64,000 nucleotides of DNA from Sorangium aterium (GTDB taxonomy: Bacteria; Myxococcota_A; Polyangia; Polyangiales; Polyangiaceae), in contig NZ_JAQNDK010000001.1 in the NCBI RefSeq assembly GCF_028368935.1, positions 2,542,001 to 2,606,000 of the forward strand. The letters are read 5' to 3'. The position numbers were made by a program, and so were the translations under genes. The notes beneath the pieces are model-generated. The model did no database searches, was not told the DNA's origin, and saw nothing but the letters and a program-made list of their open reading frames with translations. How positions within the stretch are numbered: position 1 is the stretch's first letter; each line of letters begins with the position of its first letter. Positions 2,012 to 15,494 of this stretch are shown here, piece by piece.

Positions 2012-3733
2012 TTGCGCCCCCGACATCCCGCGTCCCTTCCTTCGCCCGCGCCCCCGCCGACGCCCGCCCGCGCCGCCTGGGCGCTCGCGGCCTCGCTCGC
2101 TGTCCTGCCCGCGTGCCGCGCCGGGGCGAGCGCCTCCCACGGCGCGCCGGCGCCGGAGACGCTCCGCGCGCTGCCCGATCGAATCGACGGCAGCACCCTC
2201 CTCGGCGCGGACGCGCAGCGCGCAGCGCAGGCGGGCGCGAGCGCGCTCCGGGTGATCGGCGCGGACATGGCGTCCGACGGCGATCGGCTCGGCGCCTTCG
2301 TCGAGGTGCCCGCCGGCGAGTGCATGCTCGCGATGGCGCGGGTCTCGCCCACGATCAGCGACGTCGACCTGTTCGCCTTCGAGGACGACGGCAGCGCCTT
2401 CTCCACCGACGAGGCCGCCGACGCGCGCGCCTCCATCCTCGTCTGCCCGCCGCACCCGCGGAGGCTCTACATCATGGCGCGCGTGATGTCGGGCGCCGGG
2501 GCGGTGAGCGTCGGCGTGCAGAGCGTCCCGGTCAAGGCGGCCGACGCGGTCGCCCGCGCCGTGGGCGCGCGCGGCAGGTCCGGCGACGAGAGCGGGCGCC
2601 TCGAGTCGTGGCCCGGCCTGGAGGCGAAGATCAGGGCGCGCCGCGCCGCCGTCGGCGCGCGCTGGGACGACGTCCGGCGCGTCGCGCTGCCCGTCGGCTC
2701 CAGGACCGCGAGCCGGATCGGGGCCACCCTCGACGGCGGCCGCTGCCTCGACGTGCTCGTCTCCCCGAGCGACGAGGTCGCCTCGCTCGAGGTGGTCGCG
2801 GAGGACGAGACCGGCAGGGTCGTCGCGCGCGCGCGCGAGCGGGGCCAGGATCGCTCGCTGCTCCTCTGCTCTGCGGTCTCCGTCGAGCTCTCGATCGCGA
2901 TCCGCTCGCGCGGCACGCAGGGCCTCGTGGCCGTGGTCGTGGGCCGCTCGCAGCCGGGCGCCGAGGCGGAGATCTCCGGCGCCACGCCGATCGAGCGCGT
3001 GACCGAGGGCCGCGACCTCGCCGAGGCGCGGGCGGACCACGGCCGCGCGCTCGCCGGCCGGGGCTACGGCGCGCCGCGCGTGTCGACCGGGGCCGCGCGG
3101 CTCGGCAGCCGGACGACGCTGCCGATCGAGCTGCCGGCCGGCTGCGCCCGGATCGACGTGCTGGCCGGCAAGCCGCTCGCCGACGTGCTCGCGGAGCTCT
3201 GGAGCGAGGGCCACGCCCTCCTCGGCCGCGCCCGGGGCGGCGCCCGGGCAACGCTCTTCACCTGCGGGCGCGGCGGCCCCGCCCGCGTCGACGTCGAGTC
3301 GATGGCGCAGCCCGGCCCGTTCGCCGTGGAGGTCCGCAAGGAGCCCGAGGCCCCGCCGGCGCTCGTCGCCCATCCGCTCGCCGCCGCGAGGCTGCTCGGG
3401 CGCATGAGCGCCGCCGGCCCCGCCGACGCCGCGGGGGCGGCCGGCGCGCAGGCGGTGGCGCTCGACGCCGCGCGCCTCAAGATCCTCCCGCTCGCGATCC
3501 CGGCCAACACGTGCGCCGAGGTGATCGCGGCGCTCGACGCCGACGGCGCGGGCGTCGATCTGCGGCTCGTCGACACCTCGACGGGGGAGAGCTCGCTCGC
3601 CAGGGCGCGGCACGTCGTGTCCGACAGCCGCTGCGCCGGCCCGGCGGCCATCCCCGCGTCGATCGAGCTGCGCCTCGCGGACGGCAAGGGAGACGCCCTC
3701 GTGCTGATCCGCACCTCGCCCAGGTCGCGCTGA
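2012..3733 (+). CDS. Lipoprotein with four repeated Cys-pair modules, unknown function
   Basis: This is a 573-residue protein with a TTG start. A hydrophobic leader (residues 21-33) ends in the lipobox LPAC with Cys35, so it should be a lipoprotein. The mature part holds four similar modules of about 110-130 residues. Each has a Gly/Asn-x-Cys near the front (GECM, GGRCLDV, AGCARIDV, NTCAEVI) and a second Cys about 40-60 residues later (LVC, LLLC, LFTC, SRC). A beta-rich stretch with alternating Val/Ala lies between them. The layout recalls PPC-like bacterial beta domains, but I cannot name a family. The gene at 7228-8571 has three modules of the same plan and is probably a paralogue. The paired cysteines suggest one disulfide per module. 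No enzyme motif is seen. Confidence 0.75.
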   Translation: MRPRHPASLPSPAPPPTPARAAWALAASLAVLPACRAGASASHGAPAPETLRALPDRIDGSTLLGADAQRAAQAGASALRVIGADMASDGDRLGAFVEVPAGECMLAMARVSPTISDVDLFAFEDDGSAFSTDEAADARASILVCPPHPRRLYIMARVMSGAGAVSVGVQSVPVKAADAVARAVGARGRSGDESGRLESWPGLEAKIRARRAAVGARWDDVRRVALPVGSRTASRIGATLDGGRCLDVLVSPSDEVASLEVVAEDETGRVVARARERGQDRSLLLCSAVSVELSIAIRSRGTQGLVAVVVGRSQPGAEAEISGATPIERVTEGRDLAEARADHGRALAGRGYGAPRVSTGAARLGSRTTLPIELPAGCARIDVLAGKPLADVLAELWSEGHALLGRARGGARATLFTCGRGGPARVDVESMAQPGPFAVEVRKEPEAPPALVAHPLAAARLLGRMSAAGPADAAGAAGAQAVALDAARLKILPLAIPANTCAEVIAALDADGAGVDLRLVDTSTGESSLARARHVVSDSRCAGPAAIPASIELRLADGKGDALVLIRTSPRSR

Positions 3734-7227: not shown

Positions 7228-8571
7228 TCAGTCCATCGGCCAGACCGCGACGACCCAGACCGGCGAGCCGCCGCGCGCGGACACGCGGAGGGCGGCGCTC
7301 TCCTCGATCTCGGAGCAGAACGCGACGCCGGCGCTCTCGCCGTTCTCGCCGGCGTCGTCGCGCCCGGCGCGGTCGCCGAGCTCGACGGAGATCCGGAGCG
7401 CGCGCAGCTCGCCCCGGGCCAGCGCCGCCCCCGCGAAGTAGCAGCGGCCCGGCTCGACCTGGACCGGGACGAGCGTGTCGCCCTGCGCGCCGATCGCCTC
7501 GGCGATCGCCTGCGCGCGCGGCGCGGGCGCGTGGCGGCGGCGCAGCGCGGCGGCCAGGTTGCCGCGGGCGCGCGCGCCGAAGTGCCCCGGCACGAACGCG
7601 GACATCGGCCACTGCGCGTCGGACAGCACGACCTTCACCGGCCCCGCGGCCCCGAGGAAAGGCACCTCGACGACCCCCTGCTCGCCCAGACAGAAATCGA
7701 GCCGCGCGTCGGGCGCGTCGGACCTGTCGCGATCGAGCACCCTGCCCGTGGTCTCCTCGCGCGCCTCGGCGTCGAGATCGGTCGCGCGGCGCAACGTGGC
7801 GCTCGGCACCTCGGCCATCAGGTCGAGGCGGTGGCAACCCTCGGGGAGCCTGACCGAGAACTGCCCCGTCCCGATCGACGAGGCGCGCATGTCGGTCGGA
7901 GCGACGCGCGGCGCCCCTTCCGCCTGCGCGCGCCGCGCGGCCCGCGCGACCCGGGCGTCGAGCGGCCCCGGCTCGGAGGGCCGCCCAGGGTCGCCGCGCG
8001 GCGCGACGGGCCCGGACGCGCGCTCCGGCAGGATGGCCTCGACGCGCTCCAGCGGCCCGCTCGACGCAGCGACGACGACATCGAACGCGCTGCGCGTCGA
8101 CAGCACCTCGACCGCCAAGCGGCGCAGCCCCTCGCGCTCGGCCCCGCACAGCGTGATCGCCGCGACCCCGGTGACGCTGGGGACGCGGCGGTCGTCCTCG
8201 GGCTCCACGCCGCGCAGCCTGTGGATGAGGCCCTCGAGCGCGGGGACGCCGCCCGACGGCCCCTCCGGCGAGAGCGTGAACTCCGCCGTGCGAGGCGCGA
8301 GGAACGCAGCGGTGAGGCACTCGTCCGCCGCCGCGCCGGCCGCGCCTGCGACGCGGGCCGGGCCGGCAGGCGGATCGAGCGCCACGACTCGGGCGCGGCC
8401 GTGCTCGAGGAAGATGGGGGGGAGGCGCGCGACGCGCGCGCCCGAGAGCGACCACATCCGCGCGACGCGCGCGGCGTCGTCGCTGAGATCCGCGCGCGCC
8501 GGCGTCCCCGCGGAGACGCCGGCGAGCGCGGCGAGGAGCGAGAGGACCACGGCGCGCGCCACGCGTGCCAC
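7228..8571 (-). CDS. Secreted protein with three repeated Cys-pair modules, unknown function
   Basis: This 447-residue protein starts at a GTG at 8571, giving a clean signal peptide, MARVARAVVLSLLAALAGVSA with cleavage near PARA. A longer in-frame reading runs to 8871 but overlaps the sulfurylase gene and is Arg/Ser-rich, so it was rejected. Three modules carry the paired cysteines seen in the lipoprotein at 2012-3733: DECLTAAF...ITLC, EGCHRLDL...LDFC and GRCYFAGA...VAFC. Each second Cys is followed by a Val-rich strand. The two proteins are probably paralogues and lie on either side of the trxA/kinase pair. It converges on the kinase gene with only 7 bases between stops. Function unknown. 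Confidence 0.72.
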   Translation of the reverse strand: MARVARAVVLSLLAALAGVSAGTPARADLSDDAARVARMWSLSGARVARLPPIFLEHGRARVVALDPPAGPARVAGAAGAAADECLTAAFLAPRTAEFTLSPEGPSGGVPALEGLIHRLRGVEPEDDRRVPSVTGVAAITLCGAEREGLRRLAVEVLSTRSAFDVVVAASSGPLERVEAILPERASGPVAPRGDPGRPSEPGPLDARVARAARRAQAEGAPRVAPTDMRASSIGTGQFSVRLPEGCHRLDLMAEVPSATLRRATDLDAEAREETTGRVLDRDRSDAPDARLDFCLGEQGVVEVPFLGAAGPVKVVLSDAQWPMSAFVPGHFGARARGNLAAALRRRHAPAPRAQAIAEAIGAQGDTLVPVQVEPGRCYFAGAALARGELRALRISVELGDRAGRDDAGENGESAGVAFCSEIEESAALRVSARGGSPVWVVAVWPMD

Positions 8572-8632
8572 GTGAGGGGCGGCGCGGCCCCGCTCGACGG
8601 CGCCGCCCGCCGCGGCCCTCAGGCGCCCGGGG

Positions 8633-10378
8633 CTACGACGAGCTGCGCATCGACTCGATGAGGATGCGCGCGACCTCCGGACGGGAGAACTCCGGCGGCG
8701 GCAGCTCGCCGCGCTGGAGCAGCTCGCGCACCTTCGTCCCGGACAGGTTGACCTGCGTCGACGCGTCGCCAGGCGCCGTCTTCGCCGTGGCCATCGCGCC
8801 GACCACCGTCGAGTAGAACGCGTTCTCGAAGTTGAGCGTGGTGATGCCGAGCTCTCCGGGGCTGAAGGCATTGAAGATCTCCTGCGCGTCGTACGTGCCG
8901 TAGTAGCTGCCGACGCCGGCGTGATCGCGCCCCACGATGAAGTGGGAGCAGCCGTAGTTCTTCCGCGCCAGCGCGTGGAAGATCGCCTCGCGCGGCCCCG
9001 CGTAGCGCATCGCCGCCGGGTAGATCGAGAGCAGCACGCGGTCCTTCACATAGTACTTCGCGATGAGCTCCTCGTAGCAACGCATCCGCACGTCCGCCGG
9101 GATGTCGTCCGACTTGGTCGCGCCGACGAGCGGGTGGATCATCAGGCCGTCGCAGATCTCCAGCGCCGTCTTGGTGATGAACTCGTGCGCCCGGTGGATC
9201 GGGTTCCGCGTCTGGAACCCGACGATCCGGCGCCAGCCCTTCTCGGCGAAGTACGCCCGCGTCGTCGCCGGGCTCCGGTCGTACGCCGGGAACGCCGAGT
9301 CGACGGGCCGCTCCAGCACGCGGATCTCGCCGCCGACGTACACGGGGCCCGTGCTCATCAGGTAGGCGACGCCCGGGTGCTTCGTCTCGGTCGTCCGGAA
9401 CACCTCCTGCGCCTCGAGCTCCTTGTTCGGCCGCCACTTGTCGCTCAGCTCGATGACCGCGACGATGCGCCCGTCGCGCGCCCGGAGCGCCGCCTCGGAG
9501 CCCACGCGGAGCCCCTCGGCCGCCTGCTCGGAGACGGCGAGCGTGATCGGCATCGACCACGGAAGGCCGCTCTCGAGCCGCATCTCGCGCACGACGCGCA
9601 GGTAGTCCTTCGAGTTCATGAAGCCGCGCAGCGGGGAGAACGCCCCGACCGCGATCATCTCGACGTCGCTCTCGGTCCGCTCGTCGAGCTCGATGACCGG
9701 CAGCCCCTTCGCCCGCTCCGCGAGCGACGCCTTCGCCGCGCCCTCGACCCACCGGTTCACGAGCTCGCCGCCGTGCGGCGCGATGAGCCCGCGCGCGCCG
9801 CCCGCGGCCGCCCCCGCGGCGGCCGCGCCGGACACGGCGACCGCGGCGCCGCGGCGCGGGACGTAGCCGAGCTCCTCGAGCTTGGCGAGGATCTTGGCGA
9901 GGCTCTCCTCCTTCGTCTCCTTGCCGGTGTCGACGACCACCTCGGGGCTCTCGGGCGCCTCGTACGGATCGTCGATGCCCGTGAAGTTCTTGATCTCGCC
10001 CGCGAGCGCCTTCTTGTAGAGCCCCTTCGCGTCGCGCTCGGCGAGCACGGGGATCGCGCAGGAGCAGAACACCTCGACGAAGTGGGGGATCTGGGCCCGC
10101 TGCTCGTCACGGATCGCCTTGTAAGGGCTGATGGCGGCCGTCATCGCGCACGCGCCCGACCGGGCGATGAGCTTCGCCACGTATCCGATTCGCCGGATGT
10201 TCGTATCGCGGTCCTCCTTCGAGAACCCGAGGCCCTTCGAGAGGTTGGTGCGCACCTCGTCGCCGTCGAGCACCTCCACGTGGACGGAGCGGGCGCGGAG
10301 CTCGGCCGAGAGCATCGCCGCGAGCGTGCTCTTGCCAGCGCCGCTCAAACCGGTGAACCAGACAACAAAACCTGACAT
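8633..10378 (-). CDS. Bifunctional adenylylsulfate kinase / sulfate adenylyltransferase
   Basis: This 581-residue fusion handles sulfate activation. The N-terminal APS kinase (about 1-175) has the P-loop GLSGAGKS (10-17) and the DGDEVRTNL and SPYKAIRDE segments. An Ala/Gly-rich linker (about 177-200) leads to a homo-oligomeric type ATP sulfurylase (about 200-581), with the nucleotide motif [12 protein letters not shown] and [16 protein letters not shown]. Order kinase-then-sulfurylase is one known bacterial arrangement. It would make APS and PAPS from sulfate and ATP. An AGGAG ribosome-binding site sits 8 bases before the ATG. It lies 129 bp downstream of the cysteine operon on the same strand, so the two form one sulfur-assimilation locus. 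Confidence 0.93.
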
Positions 10379-10507: not shown

Positions 10508-11074
10508 TCAATCGACGACGGAGAACGTCGACGCGACGAACGCGGCGCCGTCCCACACGAAGAGGCGGTGCTCGGCGATGCGGGGCGCCTCCTCCGGACG
10601 CCCTTCGCCGGAGCCGCCGCGCACGCTGGTGACGAGGAACGCGAGCGGGAACGCCGGTCCGGGCCCCATCACGATCGGGGCCCCTTCCTCGGCCGGCGGC
10701 TCGCCGCCGCTCATCATGGCAGCGTCCGTCGGGCTGAAGTAGGCGCCGGCGTCGAGGTGAGAGTGATAGAGCACCTTCACCGGGCGCCCCGCCGAGGCGC
10801 CCTTCTCGACGGCGTCGGAGAAGCGCTTGCCGTTGAAATCGAAGAACGTCCGCGCCGTCCGGAAGTACCGCTCCGGATCGACGGCGTGGAGCTTGTTCGC
10901 GATGTTGTCCATCCGGACGTGCTCGTCACAGAGCAGCGGCTCGTCCGCGGGCCCCTTCAGGTACCCGCAGGCCTCCTCGTCGCGCGCGTAGCCCGCGAGC
11001 GCCTCGTCCTCGACCGCCTTGAGCACGCTCGCCTTGAGGACCACCCCACCGGCGGTCCACGGCTGTGGAGACAT
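10508..11074 (-). CDS. mec: JAMM metalloprotease, CysO-cysteine peptidase (Mec-like)
   Basis: This 188-residue protein carries a full JAMM zinc motif: Glu34 in EEACGYL, then H104-S-H106 with Ser114 and Asp117 in HSHLDAGAYFSPTD. In actinobacteria the Mec enzyme cuts cysteine from the C-terminus of the sulfur carrier CysO. Here the same gene neighbours (cysM and cysO) are in one operon, so the same reaction is inferred. The chosen ATG at 11074 overlaps the cysM stop as TGATG. In-frame ATG/GTG codons further upstream lie inside cysM. It is somewhat longer than the actinobacterial enzyme, with an extra region between the Glu and His parts. Confidence 0.85.
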   Translation of the reverse strand: MSPQPWTAGGVVLKASVLKAVEDEALAGYARDEEACGYLKGPADEPLLCDEHVRMDNIANKLHAVDPERYFRTARTFFDFNGKRFSDAVEKGASAGRPVKVLYHSHLDAGAYFSPTDAAMMSGGEPPAEEGAPIVMGPGPAFPLAFLVTSVRGGSGEGRPEEAPRIAEHRLFVWDGAAFVASTFSVVD

Positions 11075-12024
11075 CACCATAAGTAACGCTTCTCCCATTT
11101 CATGGGCGCAAAATAGCGGTCGCCCCGGTCGGGGACAATCGCCACGACGCACCCTCCTTGCTGTTCGCGGTGCAGGCGCTTCGCGATCTCGAAGGCCGCG
11201 AAGATCGCCGCGCCGCCCGAGTGCCCCACGTGCAGCGCCTCCTCGCGCGCGAGGCGATCGGACATGTCCCAGCCGTCCTCCGTCGTGATGCGCATCGTCT
11301 CGTGGTACGCGCCCTCGTCGTGGATGGCGGGCACGAGCGAGCTCGGCAGGTGCTTGAGCCCCTCCAGCCCATGGAGCGCCTCCGTGGGCTCCACGGCGAT
11401 GCAGCGGATCGGGCGGTGGTGCTCGCGCAGCCGCCGGCTCGTCCCGACGATGGTGCCGCTCGTGCCGACGCCGGCCACGAAGTGCGTGATCCTGTCGCCG
11501 ACCGCCTCCAGGATCTCGCGCGCCGTACCGTGGTAGTGGGCGAGCGGGTTGTCCTCGTTCGAGTACTGATCCGGGTAGAAGTACCGCTCCGGATCCTTCT
11601 CGACCAGCGAGCGCACGAGGCGGATGGCGCCGTCGGAGCCCTCCATCGGGTCGCTGAAGATGAGCTCCGTGCCGAACGCGCGCGCGATGTCCTTGCGCGC
11701 CTTCGACACGTTCGACGGCATGACGAGCGCCACCTTGAAGCCCATCGCCGCGCCGAAGAGCGAGTAGGCGACCCCGGTGTTGCCGCTCGTCGAGTCGATG
11801 AGCGTCTTCTGGCTGGTGAGGCGGCCGTCCGCGGCGGCGCGGGTCATCATCCGCAGCGCGGCGCGATCCTTCACCGAGCCGCCGGGGTTCGCGAACTCGA
11901 GCTTGGCGTAGACCTCGACCGACGGCGTCTCGCGGCCCACGCGCGAGAGGCGCAACAGCGGCGTGTCGCCCACGGCGTCGACGACCGACCCCAGGCGCCG
12001 GGAGCGGGCGAGCGAGTGCCTCAT
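11074..12024 (-). CDS. cysM: Cysteine synthase (CysM-type, probably CysO-dependent)
   Basis: This 316-residue fold-type II PLP enzyme has the PLP lysine K52 in NPGGSVKDRAAL, STSGNTGVAYS as the substrate loop, and GVGTSGTIVGTSR for phosphate binding. The sequence ends in KWEKRYLW. Its length, ending and placement beside a CysO-like carrier and a Mec-like protease fit the mycobacterial CysM, which uses O-phosphoserine and thiocarboxylated CysO as sulfur donor rather than free sulfide. Its start overlaps the upstream stop as ATGA (12021-12024). A second, different cysteine synthase is in the same operon at 13639-14709. Substrate preference is inferred from context. Confidence 0.85.
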   Translation of the reverse strand: MRHSLARSRRLGSVVDAVGDTPLLRLSRVGRETPSVEVYAKLEFANPGGSVKDRAALRMMTRAAADGRLTSQKTLIDSTSGNTGVAYSLFGAAMGFKVALVMPSNVSKARKDIARAFGTELIFSDPMEGSDGAIRLVRSLVEKDPERYFYPDQYSNEDNPLAHYHGTAREILEAVGDRITHFVAGVGTSGTIVGTSRRLREHHRPIRCIAVEPTEALHGLEGLKHLPSSLVPAIHDEGAYHETMRITTEDGWDMSDRLAREEALHVGHSGGAAIFAAFEIAKRLHREQQGGCVVAIVPDRGDRYFAPMKWEKRYLW

Positions 12025-12371
12025 GACGGGTCGACCTCCCCCGCGCTCCCCTGCCCCGCGCTCCCCGCGGCGCTGCCCTGAGCCAGCGCGGCGCGCATCG
12101 CGGCGAGCGCCGCGCGCGCGCCCGCGAGCACGGCGCGCGCGGCGGGCGAGGCGACGAGCTCCGCGGGCGCGAGCGCGGCGAGGTCGATCGCGCCCTCCGC
12201 GAGCGCGCCGAAGCCGGCGCCGCGCGCGTAGCGCTCCGCCACCTCGTGCGCGAGCGGCGGCGCGTCGCTGCCGCCGCCGAGCACGCGCGCCGTCGCCGCC
12301 TTGAGCCTCGCCTGTCCCTCTGGACCGATCTCCGCGAGCAACACCTGGCGGAGATAGCGCGGGTCGTCCAC
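12021..12371 (-). CDS. Stand-alone E1/MoeB N-terminal segment-like protein
   Basis: This 116-residue protein has a GTG start one base after the cysO stop. Residues 4-32 (from PRYLRQVLLAEIGPEGQARL to the stretch ending ARVLGGG) match the N-terminal helix and first strand of MoeB/ThiF/HesA enzymes, where the pattern is RYxRQxxLxxxGxxGQxxL. That segment is missing from the MoeB-like protein of the same operon. The remainder (AHEVAERYARGAGF, then Ala/Leu-rich helices) looks like a degenerate E1 continuation without a working glycine loop. Arg8 would correspond to E. coli MoeB Arg14, which reaches ATP across the dimer. I infer that it completes the shortened E1 in trans; a decaying duplicate is the alternative. 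Confidence 0.7.
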   Translation of the reverse strand: MDDPRYLRQVLLAEIGPEGQARLKAATARVLGGGSDAPPLAHEVAERYARGAGFGALAEGAIDLAALAPAELVASPAARAVLAGARAALAAMRAALAQGSAAGSAGQGSAGEVDPS

Positions 12372-12372
12372 C

Positions 12373-12651
12373 TCAGCCCCCGGCGATCGCGGGGACGATT
12401 GCCACCTGGTCGCCGCCCTTCACGGGCGTCTTCAGCCCGTCGAGGAAGCGGATGTCCTCGTCGCCCACGAAGATGTTCACGAAGCGCCGCACGCCCTTCT
12501 CGTCGAGGAGTCGGTCGCGGATGCCAGGGTAGCTCTTCTCGAGGTTCTCGATCAGCTCGCCGACGGTGCCGCCGGCGGCTTTGACCTCGTCCTGCCCCCC
12601 GGTGAGCGTGCGGAGGGGGGTCGGGATGCGGACGGTCGCGGTGTCAGCCAT
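12373..12651 (-). CDS. cysO: Sulfur carrier protein, CysO/MoaD-ThiS family
   Basis: This 92-residue beta-grasp protein has the start MADTATVRIPTPLRTLTGGQ, the segments RFVNIFVGDEDIRFLDGL and GDQVAIVPAIAGG, and an exposed C-terminal Gly-Gly as needed for adenylation and thiocarboxylate formation. The pattern closely recalls mycobacterial CysO. It would be activated by the MoeB-like E1, carry sulfur to CysM, and be released by the JAMM protease. Its ATG lies 8 bases inside the 3' end of the E1-like gene, and its stop is one base from the next start, so translation is probably coupled. Confidence 0.92.
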   Translation of the reverse strand: MADTATVRIPTPLRTLTGGQDEVKAAGGTVGELIENLEKSYPGIRDRLLDEKGVRRFVNIFVGDEDIRFLDGLKTPVKGGDQVAIVPAIAGG

Positions 12652-13642
12652 GGTCTTGCTCTCCAGTCTTGAGGTGGGTCGAGGATCCGCTCTCGCGGTC
12701 CTTTACAGCAGCGGTCGGGGATTCGCCTTCGCGGTCCCCTTCAACGTGGGTCGGGGATCCGCCTTCGCGGTCCCCTTCAACGTGGGTCGGGGATCCGCCT
12801 TCGCGGTCCCCTTCAACGTGGGTCGGGGATCCGCCTTCGCGGTCCCCTTCAACGTGGGTCGGGGATCCGCCTTCGCGGTCCCCTTCAACGTGGGTCGGGG
12901 ATCCGCTCTCCGCCGCGCATGCGACGACGTAGCGGGATGCGTCGATCGTCGCGATCGCGGCGCGCGCCCCGCAGAGGTCGCAGGCGGGCCGCGCGGAGAC
13001 AGGGACGCTGCGCAGCGTGTCCGTGAGGCCGTCGTACGTCGCGATCCGGCCGAAGATCGACGCGTCGCCCGCGAGGATCGCCAGCGCGCGATCCGCCGCG
13101 ATCGCGCCGGCCACGCCGCACACCGGGCCAGCCACGCCGGCCGTGGCGCAATCCGGCGCGTCCCCGGTCGGCAGGTCCTCGAACAGGCAGCGGTAGCAGG
13201 GCGCCCCCTCCCCCGCGACCGCCATCACCGTCGCGCGCCAGCGGATCGCGGCGGCATGGACCACCGGCGTCCTCGTCAGGCGGCACACGTCGGCGATCAG
13301 GAACCGCGACGCGAAGTTGTCGGTCGCGTCGACCACCACGGAGACGCCCGGCATCAGCCCCGCCGCCGCGCTCGGCGCGAAGCGGCCGTAACGGCGATCG
13401 ACGCGGAGCCCGGGGAAGCGACGGCGCAGCGCCTCCGCGAACGCGTCGAGCTTCGGCCGCCCGACGTCGTCGTCGTCGAACAGGATCTGACGATGCAAGT
13501 TCGTCAGCTCGACCTGGTCGTCGTCCGCGACCCGCAGCTCCCGCACCCCGGCAGCGGCGAGCGCGAGCGCGGCGGGCGCGGCGATCCCCCCCGCCCCGAC
13601 GAGGAGGACGCACCCGCGGATCGCCTCGCCGCCGCCGCTCAT
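12644..13642 (-). CDS. MoeB/ThiF-like E1 adenylating enzyme, N-terminally short, with repeat tail
   Basis: This 332-residue protein starts at an ATG at 13642 that overlaps the cysK stop (ATGA). It starts directly at strand one: CVLLVGAGG (11-19). Counterparts of E. coli MoeB Arg73, Lys86 and Asp130 are R51 (NLHRQ), K64 (GRPK) and D108 (DATDN). Zinc ligands are C149/C152 and C221/C224, and the likely active Cys is C165 (DCATAGV). The usual N-terminal RYxRQ helix is absent and no rhodanese domain follows. Instead residues about 247-332 are a 12-residue repeat, GSPTHVEGDREG, five times nearly perfect plus two decayed copies. It would adenylate CysO. Confidence 0.87.
   Translation of the reverse strand: MSGGGEAIRGCVLLVGAGGIAAPAALALAAAGVRELRVADDDQVELTNLHRQILFDDDDVGRPKLDAFAEALRRRFPGLRVDRRYGRFAPSAAAGLMPGVSVVVDATDNFASRFLIADVCRLTRTPVVHAAAIRWRATVMAVAGEGAPCYRCLFEDLPTGDAPDCATAGVAGPVCGVAGAIAADRALAILAGDASIFGRIATYDGLTDTLRSVPVSARPACDLCGARAAIATIDASRYVVACAAESGSPTHVEGDREGGSPTHVEGDREGGSPTHVEGDREGGSPTHVEGDREGGSPTHVEGDREGESPTAAVKDRESGSSTHLKTGEQDHG
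12683..12904. repeat. 36-bp in-frame tandem repeat in the E1-like gene
   Basis: Six contiguous 36-bp units (starting at 12683, 12719, 12755, 12791, 12827 and 12863) encode the C-terminal 12-residue repeats of the MoeB-like protein on the minus strand. The three central units are identical at DNA level. The first (12683) is diverged and the second has one changed base. Such identity suggests recent slippage expansion. The unit length keeps the reading frame. Confidence 0.9.
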
Positions 13643-14709
13643 CGGAAATACTCGTCCAGGCTGAAGTAGCGCTCGCCTGTGTCGCAGAGGACGGTCACCA
13701 CGTTGGCGTCGGGGCCGAGCTCGCGGGCGACGTCGAGCGCGACGCGCACCGCGGCGCCAGCGCTGATGCCGACGAGCAGCCCCTCCTGACGGGCCAGCGC
13801 CGCCTTCGTGTCGTACGCGGCGCGATCGCTGACCGTCCGCACCTCGTCCACCACGCTCGGATCGTAGTTCTCGGGGACGAACCCGGCGGCGAGCCCCTGG
13901 ATCTTGGTGGGCCCGCGCTCGCCGCGCGAGATCGTCGCGCACGACTCGGGCTCGACCGCGATGACGCGCGTCGCCCGGCGGAGCCGCTTGAGCACGCGCC
14001 CGACACCGCTCACCGACCCGCCCGTCCCCACGCCGGCGACGAACGCGTCGATCGTCAGCGACTGCCGGGGACCGGGCCGCCCCGGCGCGTCGAGGCCGGC
14101 CATCGCGTGCAGGATCTCCCGCGCGGTCGTCTCCGCGTGGACGCGCGGGTTGTCGGGGTTGTCGAACTGGCTGAGGATGAGCGCCCCCGGGATGTCCGCC
14201 GCGAGCTCGCGCGCCCGGGCGATGGCCCCCTCCATCTGCAGCTCGGGCTCGGTCAGGACGACCTCCGCCCCGTAGGCCTCGAGCAGCTGGCGCCGCTCCA
14301 GGCTCATGCTCGCCGGCATCGTCAGGATGCAGCGGTACCCCTTCGCCGCGCACACGATCGCGAGCCCGATCCCGGTGTTCCCCGACGTCGGCTCGATGAC
14401 CACGCCGCCCGCGCCGAGCAGCCCGCGCGCCTCGGCGCCCTCGATCATCGCGAGGCAGATCCGGTCCTTCAGCGAGCCGCCCGGGTTCTGCTGCTCGGCC
14501 TTCCCGAAGACGCGCCCCCGGGGCGTCGCCGCGTCGACGCGGCGGATCTCGTAGAGCGGGGTGTCGCCGACGAGGTCGAGGAGGCTGTCGACGACGCGCG
14601 GGTGCGACGGCAGCGGCGGGAGCTGCGCTGCGCGCTCCGCGGGTGCGCCCGGTGCGCCCGGTGCGCCCGGTGCGCCGGTGGATTGTGCGGATCGTTCGGG
14701 GCTGCTCAT
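13639..14709 (-). CDS. cysK: Cysteine synthase A / O-acetylserine sulfhydrylase
   Basis: This 356-residue fold-type II PLP enzyme has the PLP lysine K81 in NPGGSLKDRI, substrate loop EPTSGNTGIGLA, phosphate loop GVGTGGSVSGVGR and C-terminal GISAGAAVR. It makes cysteine from O-acetylserine and sulfide. A low-complexity N-terminal extension with four Gly-Ala-Pro units, from a 9-bp DNA repeat near 14650, precedes the core. It is the second gene of the operon, following the Rrf2 regulator by 9 bases. With cysM downstream, the locus has both a sulfide-dependent and a carrier-dependent synthase. Confidence 0.92.
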   Translation of the reverse strand: MSSPERSAQSTGAPGAPGAPGAPAERAAQLPPLPSHPRVVDSLLDLVGDTPLYEIRRVDAATPRGRVFGKAEQQNPGGSLKDRICLAMIEGAEARGLLGAGGVVIEPTSGNTGIGLAIVCAAKGYRCILTMPASMSLERRQLLEAYGAEVVLTEPELQMEGAIARARELAADIPGALILSQFDNPDNPRVHAETTAREILHAMAGLDAPGRPGPRQSLTIDAFVAGVGTGGSVSGVGRVLKRLRRATRVIAVEPESCATISRGERGPTKIQGLAAGFVPENYDPSVVDEVRTVSDRAAYDTKAALARQEGLLVGISAGAAVRVALDVARELGPDANVVTVLCDTGERYFSLDEYFR

Positions 14710-14718
14710 GGTGTCGGT

Positions 14719-15174
14719 TCAGATCACGTAGGTCGAGCGCTCGGGCCGCCCCTTGCGGCGCACGCCGAGCTCGACGCCGCGCTCGCAGACGTCGGCGATC
14801 GAGACCGAGTCGAAGCAGCGCTCGATCGCGAGCGCCAGATCGTGGAACACGGCCGTGGGCGGGTCGAGCGGCGAGCCCTCCGGCCTGCCGTCGTCATCCG
14901 GCGCGATCACGGCGACCGGCCCCTCCAGGGCGCGGACGACGTCCCCCAGGCTGATCTCGCTCGCGGGCCGCGCGAGGTGATAACCGCCGCGCGGCCCCCG
15001 CTTCGAGCTGATGAGCCCGGCCTTCTTCAGGTCCTGGAAGATCTGCTCCAGGAAGCGCGCAGGGATGACCTCACGCTCCGAGATCTCGCGGATCTGCGTC
15101 GGCCGCCCGTCGTTGTGGAATGCGATATCGAACAATGCGCGCACACCGTAGCGACCCTTGTTCGAGAGCTTCAC
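14719..15174 (-). CDS. Rrf2-family regulator, CymR-like, first gene of the cysteine operon
   Basis: This is a 151-residue protein. The start is taken as the GTG at 15174 because the family begins (M)KLSxKGRYG, here VKLSNKGRYGVRALFDIA. An alternative ATG 27 bases upstream would add nine residues. The winged helix is intact (IPARFLEQIFQDLKKAGL, then the wing RGPRGGYHLARP). Fe-S cysteines of the IscR type are absent. The protein ends in Tyr-Val-Ile. A free C-terminal isoleucine is the feature by which serine acetyltransferase and other partners enter the CysK active site, and Bacillus CymR works as a complex with CysK. I infer that it represses this operon together with CysK. Confidence 0.85.
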   Translation of the reverse strand: MKLSNKGRYGVRALFDIAFHNDGRPTQIREISEREVIPARFLEQIFQDLKKAGLISSKRGPRGGYHLARPASEISLGDVVRALEGPVAVIAPDDDGRPEGSPLDPPTAVFHDLALAIERCFDSVSIADVCERGVELGVRRKGRPERSTYVI

Positions 15175-15494
15175 CGCCAGCCATATGCATTGGTGCATCG
15201 GAGAAGTCAAGAACGGCACATTCAGCGACTTACCCTTCTTTCCGTGCGACACAGCACCCGAACAGCGCACAAAAACCGGCGGTCGCGGCGAAATTACCAG
15301 CAGAGGTTCACCGTTCGCCGCGTCGCCGCGACGCGGCCTCGGCTTCCTGTTGAACCGGATGGGACGGGTTCAGTAGCTTCGAGCTCTATCGAGGCTGCGA
15401 GTCGCCGCGCGTGCACGGAGGGGCGCGCGGAACGTGATCGGCGCGCGGGCGTCGCACGGTTCGGGTTGCGGCGCACCAACCTAGGAGTCGGCCG
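15175..15494. other. 320-bp divergent promoter region with ATGCA-TTGG-TGCAT palindrome
   Basis: No gene is supported. The region is AT-richer than its surroundings between 15180 and 15300 and must hold the promoters of the cysteine operon (leftward) and the acyl-CoA dehydrogenase (rightward). A perfect inverted repeat, ATGCA (15185-15189) and TGCAT (15194-15198) around a 4-base spacer, lies 11 bases before the Rrf2 start. It is a candidate autoregulatory operator. Confidence 0.5.

Follow-up and report, generated by a model that had tools for sequence, protein, structure and literature searches.

How does an E1-like adenylyltransferase that lacks the helix carrying the arginine finger complete its ATP site? 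This question is raised by a locus of Sorangium aterium (NCBI RefSeq assembly GCF_028368935.1, contig NZ_JAQNDK010000001.1, positions 2,542,001 to 2,606,000 of the forward strand; these 64,000 nucleotides are referred to as the window), in which the genes for a 332-residue MoeB/ThiF-like protein (the short E1) and for a 116-residue protein that bears the missing segment (the fragment) flank a gene for a CysO-like sulfur carrier. In MoeB, the finger comes from the neighbouring subunit across the dimer. The same is described for ThiF, where the finger of each chain reaches the ATP site of the neighbouring subunit (available part of PMC13139853). The original prediction, made from the letters of the window, was that the fragment completes the active site in trans, yielding a heteromeric E1 for CysO. 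Our analysis makes it probable that the short E1 and the fragment do form a heteromeric E1 together, with the fragment as an inactive mini-protomer that contributes its Arg8 to the ATP site, while the addition "for CysO" fits the window and is too narrow for the pair overall.

Anatomy of the short E1 and the fragment

The short E1 begins at the first Rossmann strand, as had been predicted, with its PF00899 match starting at profile position 23 of 238, and the predicted R51, K64 and D108 are present and are placed by alignment on MoeB residues 73, 86 and 130, the positions named for MoeB as Arg73, Lys86 and Asp130 in the available part of PMC12355090. The finger helix RYxRQ/H is not in the same chain, as judged from the PF00899 start and from upstream stop codons in seven relatives. 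The frame of the window E1 is open far upstream, unlike that of these relatives, in which a stop precedes the matched domain by 4-18 codons (L064 4, L074 9, L023 10, L069 13, L026 14, L037 18 and L039 18), so that the missing helix is not hidden upstream of the E1. The ATP site itself is intact, with G16, G18, G19, D40, D42, N48, R51, K64 and D108 each found in 105/105 short E1s, and the cysteines of the two CxxC pairs are close to invariant (C149 and C152 104/105, C221 104/105, C224 100/105). ThiF is the sole E1 domain recognised by Pfam in the window protein, and neither a rhodanese domain nor a catalytic-cysteine half-domain or ubiquitin-fold domain (UFD) was matched. A search with the short E1 matched the catalytic subunit of the NEDD8 E1 from its Rossmann strand (expectation value, E, 1e-11), and also ThiF and MoeB. 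A truncated or mis-started E1 gene is ruled out by the near upstream stops together with the 100/99 branch that isolates the short E1s in the tree described below.

The 3' end of the E1 gene contains a 36-bp tandem repeat of 6.5 copies (window 12674-12906) encoding GSPTHVEGDREG repeats, the unit of which is confined to the E1 gene in this genome (search allowing up to 3 mismatches). Its copy number varies among Sorangium relatives, with many copies in L018, few in L096 and no array in L020. In L018 (G100, ~2480-3270) the short E1 is read in two frames and includes a short duplicated stretch (IRWRATVMA twice), which reflects either an assembly error in this one-contig genome or a duplication that shifted the frame.

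The fragment was said to bear the finger segment PRYLRQ...GPEGQ, and this is borne out. Pfam gave no match to the fragment at E values up to 1, so routine annotation will probably overlook it and label the short E1 a normal MoeB. In NCBIfam the five top matches are to ThiF, MoeB and UbaA models (E 4e-5 to 2e-4, all under their cut-offs), and all five fall at the start of the E1 domain. A profile built from 60 fragments gave matches close to the N-termini of Uba4, ThiF and MoeB with E 1e-9 to 1e-6, and likewise of SAE1 (E 0.03) and, weakly, of APPBP1/NAE1 (E 0.44). Arg8 corresponds to profile position 5, which aligns with MoeB chain residue 14 and with ThiF residue 11 (chain 1zud_1), a correspondence taken from match ranges of equal length; MoeB residue 14 and ThiF residue 11 are the residues named as arginine fingers in PMC13139853, as far as that text is available.

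Conservation was assessed in 109 fragments, drawn from 105 genomes and four named loci. Arg occupies the finger position in 106/109, and the next residue is Gln or His in 109/109; GxxGQ retains its first glycine in 106, its second in 107 and its glutamine in 107, and Y..AG, which lies away from the finger, is also retained. The ATP loop is eroded, its first two glycines being present in 64/109 and 59/109 and its last in 12/109. The third loop glycine, conserved in 53 of 57 full-length E1s, is outside the four commonest residues in the fragments, and the same applies to the post-loop proline (57/57 in full-length E1s) and the aspartate after strand 2 (55/57). On these alignments, each half retains what the other half has lost, a reciprocal conservation. 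Since the fragment columns average 29% identity, the near-invariance of Arg8 argues that the arginine itself matters.

That the fragment is the N-terminus of a frameshifted E1 is ruled out, since CysO intervenes and the fragment possesses a C-terminal helix that belongs to it alone. In two loci, L070 (downstream of the fragment match) and L024, the fragment frames carry tandem repeats, PSLSTTPSLSTT and AVSDRAVSDR.

The AlphaFold2 model of the fragment (mean predicted local distance difference test, pLDDT, 84.8; predicted template modelling score, pTM, 0.72) comprises helices at residues 4-11, 16-25, 39-52 and 76-104 and strands at 27-32 and 56-60. The best PDB match in Foldseek is E. coli ThiF (E 0.36, probability 0.99). 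In VIA-align, run against a set of 32 chains with rows below Z 8 counted as middling, the fragment was fitted to Uba4 (Z 7.5, 103 residues, root-mean-square deviation, rmsd, 4.0), ThiF (Z 6.3, 96 residues, rmsd 3.5), MoeB (Z 5.9, 95 residues, rmsd 3.4, chain 7-217) and human SAE1 (3kyc_A, taken as the SAE1 chain from the chain names in the profile search; Z 5.9, 90 residues, rmsd 3.3, chain 14-323), with fits spanning fragment residues ~1-100; lumazine synthase was also matched (Z 4.7). Because 90-100 aligned residues span such long ranges of the target chains, an E1 protomer with its middle deleted fits, and such an internally deleted protomer is the predicted fold of the fragment. The sequence matches of the profile are firmer evidence for this than the Z values.

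Co-occurrence and linkage of the two genes

Family searches covered 108 genomes, with short and full-length E1s assigned by a profile criterion. Loci were drawn for 91 of them, of which 84 have a short E1 (including G097, where the E1 start is cut by a contig end), 84 a fragment and 83 both; G048 has a short E1 without a fragment on a contig that ends inside CysO, and G035 a fragment without a short E1 on a contig that ends just past CysO. The other 17 genomes, and the 6 with neither part, were re-searched by profiles, and no separate fragment was detected in these 23 genomes without a short E1. In 22 of them the fragment profile gave 23 matches, each at the start of a full-length E1, and in the genome of G017 it gave none. 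Ten weaker E1-profile matches in the 23 genomes (E 5e-35 to 1e-20) coincide with no fragment-profile match; the seven that were read (all except two in G040 and one in G070) have sequence before the Rossmann strand and by look belong to other E1 families.

Outside the family, a short E1 was found in 22/27 genomes with loci, a non-random set consisting largely of top matches in a 282-genome sample of the phylum, and a fragment in 21 of the 22. Absence of the fragment from genomes that retain the short E1 had been named in advance as the observation that would speak against the prediction; across both sets the fragment is present in 104/106 short-E1 genomes, with one absence at a contig end and one that is real (G269). 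Among the best 80 of at least 584 loci encoding relatives in a GTDB scan, a short E1 occurs at 23 and is accompanied by a fragment at 21, the other two being the contig end of G048 (L100) and a locus of G027 (L165) whose fragment lies on another contig, while a separate fragment was found at 0/57 of the loci with full-length E1s within up to 4 kb on each side. The genome sets and the named loci overlap, so these counts are not independent of each other. Relatives of the fragment occur in several families of the order and beyond. The co-occurrence and the conservation together imply that the pairing of E1 and fragment is not due to chance, nor to decay confined to one locus.

The common gene order is E1-CysO-fragment. 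In 14 genomes of the family, E1 and fragment stand alone with their matches 23-142 nucleotides (nt) apart, and searches gave no match to CysO, CysK, CysM or JAMM at these loci and none to CysO anywhere in the 14 genomes (E up to 0.001). One of the 14, G028, encodes E1 and fragment in a single open frame of 356 residues counted from Met, on the same contig as L113; this fusion is known from one assembly of one metagenome-assembled genome (MAG). A relative of the secreted-looking protein that ends the gene run of the window (Table 1) follows the fragment in 10/12 CysO-less genomes with at least 900 nt of downstream sequence, the exceptions being G042 and G107. In two further genomes the E1 is parted from CysO-fragment, as G027 carries CysK-E1 and CysO-fragment on different contigs and the E1 of G026 lies near a contig end, again on a contig other than that of CysO-fragment; in both genomes, 1.2 kb or more of other sequence lies on the flank at which the partner is expected.

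Distances among 71 genomes were compared by partial correlation. The distances of E1 and fragment correlate with r 0.54 (0/500 permutations as high), those of CysO and E1 with r 0.25 (0/500), of fragment and CysO with r 0.22 (1/500), and of fragment and CysM with r 0.10 (52/500), the last being an imperfect mirror-tree control, as CysM rows were chosen by best hit and some may be CysK.

A proposed two-subunit E1 and its alternatives

A two-part E1 is supported by the co-occurrence, the reciprocal conservation, the fusion, the 14 pairs without CysO, and G026 and G027. In the mechanism that we propose, the short E1 would do the chemistry, binding ATP and the carrier (CysO here) and adenylating the C-terminal glycine of the carrier, whereas the fragment, a shrunken and catalytically dead E1 protomer, would dock at the place that the second subunit takes in the MoeB homodimer, so that its N-terminal helix with Arg8 would be pushed onto the triphosphate. 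The fragment would have retained only this helix and enough of the fold to dock, and the short E1 the ATP site; that Arg8 reaches ATP is what we infer from homology. Activated CysO may then be sulfurated and used by CysM, and the JAMM peptidase would free the cysteine. CysO is the likely substrate of the window E1, because E1 and fragment flank it and the neighbouring genes are those of a CysO-CysM-Mec+ pathway, and the 14 CysO-less genomes suggest that the pair can also have another use.

Several observations weigh against a two-subunit enzyme of this kind. At the finger position, two fragments have Lys and one has Ala, and because the first two loop glycines often remain (64 and 59 of the 109 fragments), loss of ATP binding by the fragment is likely rather than certain. 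The fold matches are middling (E1 rows Z 4.5-7.5, a distant E1-like row 2.2, Foldseek E 0.36). In the model of the fusion protein the fragment part has pLDDT <60 and is uninformative on docking; the fusion was folded with E1 rows only, as mixed E1 and fragment alignments put the fragment rows on the E1 part. CysO tracks both E1 (0.25) and fragment (0.22), and the survival of the pair in 14 genomes where CysO was not found makes the substrate uncertain. The counts are not independent events, the genomes being related to one another and many of them fragmented MAGs. G269 (L082; one contig, completeness 100) retains a short E1 whose ATP-site residues are intact; there CysM comes directly after CysO, and no separate fragment was found in the genome, the only strong match of the fragment profile being the N-terminus of a full-length E1. 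The finger arginines of MoeB and ThiF are not essential, and TcdA is without a finger, according to the available part of PMC13139853 (2026). G269 offers a natural test case for finger-free activity.

The reportedly dispensable fingers of MoeB and ThiF, together with the need for Tcd1 in Tcd2 stability, make a structural role the main rival to the lending of Arg8. The fragment would then be an obligate partner that fills the place of the second protomer and keeps the short E1 soluble or folded, with Arg8 minor for catalysis, as in yeast, where the inactive Tcd1 is needed for the stability of Tcd2 and a change of the finger to Ala cut the product ratio by only 26% (PMC13139853, in its available part). 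The retention of GxxGQ and Y..AG, apart from the finger, is in line with this, yet a purely structural partner need not have kept its arginine in 106/109 fragments while the ATP loop of the same protein was largely lost, and we consider such a role unlikely, if deserving of serious attention. It is decidedly less plausible that the short E1 acts alone and that the fragment serves CysO, CysM, the secreted-looking protein or a full-length E1, for instance. G269 would agree with a solitary short E1, and the adjacency of CysO and fragment in G026 and G027, with the E1 on another contig, and the linked distances of fragment and CysO (r 0.22, 1/500) would agree with another job for the fragment. However, 14 genomes hold E1 and fragment side by side where CysO was not found, the two are joined in one fusion, the fragment distances track those of E1 more than those of CysO or CysM, and in 22 of the 23 genomes without a short E1 a full-length E1 of this family occurs with no separate fragment. 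That the fragment is nothing but a functionless, decaying relic of a second E1 gene can hardly be credited: its resemblance to an internally deleted E1, and the longer, apparently dead E1s in the same slot of relatives, would be expected of a relic, but its near-invariant residues, open reading frame, confident predicted fold and relatives across families of the order and beyond would not.

Comparison with known E1s, origin and operon context

In the E1s for SUMO and NEDD8, the arginine is supplied by the inactive subunit, SAE1 or NAE1. These enzymes, SAE1-SAE2 and NAE1-UBA3, combine a catalytic subunit with an inactive adenylation subunit (available part of PMC12355090), and the Sorangium pair resembles them in that the catalytic short E1 is without a finger helix of its own, while the fragment, presumed inactive, has the finger arginine and no full ATP loop. 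The resemblance extends to the searches, as the fragment profile matches the N-terminal parts of SAE1 and NAE1 and the short E1 the catalytic NEDD8 subunit. Unlike the partner in SAE1-SAE2, the fragment has ~100-116 residues instead of a full inactive domain (the apparently dead E1s of L093 and L124 have 199 and 243 residues from match to stop), and unlike both eukaryotic enzymes, the short E1 shows no catalytic-cysteine half-domain or UFD in Pfam and the pair lies in a bacterial sulfur-carrier operon. Yeast Tcd1-Tcd2, which acts in the cyclic N6-threonylcarbamoyladenosine (ct6A) pathway, also consists of two E1-like paralogues, the inactive Tcd1 offering its Arg59 to Tcd2 (PMC13139853, available part), but both proteins are full-length (>400 residues) and eukaryotic, and the substrate is tRNA. 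E. coli MoeB and ThiF homodimers share the ATP-site residues and the finger helix with the Sorangium proteins; there all parts are in one polypeptide, whereas here they are split over two genes. Like the mycobacterial CysO-CysM-Mec+ system (PMC3227635, available part), the window has CysO-like, CysM-like and JAMM genes together, although mycobacterial MoeZR is one chain with a rhodanese domain and the window E1 has the ThiF domain only. Heteromeric E1s are already known, while no bacterial two-gene form with a ~100-residue finger subunit was found in the literature searched, subscription literature being mostly outside reach.

If the proposed two-subunit enzyme is real, it provides a bacterial parallel to the passage from a homodimeric E1 to an asymmetric two-subunit E1, with the longer, apparently dead E1s persisting in relatives, and it allows a clean test of the E1 arginine finger, since the finger can be supplied, left out or altered as a separate protein while the catalytic chain is untouched. 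A wider proposition, that this bacterial heteromeric E1 arose by reciprocal decay along the logic of SAE1-SAE2 and that in CysO-less lineages it acts on another substrate linked to the secreted-looking family, is tentative and, with both parts taken jointly, rather doubtful.

In an unrooted E1 tree built from 32 short rows (one gene being entered twice) and 30 full-length ones, 62 rows in all, a single 100/99 branch separates the short E1s from every full-length E1 included, which is consistent with their having arisen once. L153 and L162 (Nitrospirota) have the order CysK, full-length E1, threonine-synthase-like gene, CysO and a second full-length E1, and L093 and L124 the order CysK, short E1, threonine-synthase-like gene, CysO, apparently dead E1 (199 and 243 residues from match to stop) and CysM, while at most other loci only ~100 residues are left in the slot after CysO. 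The arrangement probably arose through duplication of an E1 within the operon followed by reciprocal loss, in which one copy would have lost the finger helix and the copy after CysO the core; the order of the losses is one that we infer. The tree cannot place the longer dead E1s, whose branch is very long, so it is synteny that points to the second E1 of the operon as the source of the fragment. The gene between the first E1 and CysO in these four loci is called threonine-synthase-like from a look at its sequence.

Nine minus-strand genes of the window, from an Rrf2-family regulator to the secreted-looking protein, form an operon-like run according to open reading frames (ORFs) and profiles (Table 1). 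The overlapping operon of the original prediction holds for E1 and CysO (8 nt) and for fragment and CysM (4 nt), whereas a gap of 1 nt separates CysO from the fragment; the ATG of the E1 gene overlaps the CysK stop codon, and that of CysM the stop codon of the fragment. The CysO, CysM and JAMM genes are clustered as expected for a CysO/Mec+ pathway, the names CysO, CysM and Mec+ being given by best model and gene order, with the cysM and SAMP1 models below their cut-offs.

Table 1. Features of the operon-like run in the window (window positions)
Feature	Position	Strand	Basis or remark
Rrf2-family regulator	14719-15270	minus	profile match; head of run
CysK-type cysteine synthase	13639-14709	minus	profile match
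Short E1, MoeB/ThiF-like adenylyltransferase, 332 residues	12644-13642	minus	no N-terminal RYxRQ helix
CysO-like sulfur carrier, ThiS family, C-terminal GG	12373-12651	minus	between E1 and fragment
Fragment, 116 residues, GTG start, putative inactive mini-E1 protomer	12021-12371	minus	ORF, profile, predicted fold
Parts of fragment: arginine-finger helix, degenerate beta-alpha-beta, C-terminal helix	12021-12371	minus	sequence and predicted fold
Arg8 codon of fragment, aligned with MoeB Arg14 / ThiF Arg11	12348-12350	minus	profile match
Cysteine synthase, best model cysM (under its cut-off)	11074-12024	minus	NCBIfam match
JAB/JAMM peptidase, Mec+-like by position	10508-11152	minus	domain match and gene order
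APS kinase / ATP sulfurylase fusion	8633-10378	minus	profile match
Secreted-looking (by eye) protein, no Pfam match	~7228-8595	minus	end of run; start approximate

The Sorangium genome (13.47 Mb, 7 contigs) encodes a second, full-length E1 on contig C3, which opens with a normal finger helix and is putatively MoeZ-like. Among the best 80 named loci, Sorangium cellulosum So0008-312 is a close relative, its E1 being 85% identical to that of the window. Members of the secreted-looking family, which has no Pfam match, are found in the window (7228-8595, minus strand) and at L239:59-1345, L231:1230-2495 and L097:5802-7238, either downstream in these operons or directly after stand-alone E1-fragment pairs. 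In an alignment of 29 members, cysteine is invariant in three columns and occupies a fourth in 24/29.

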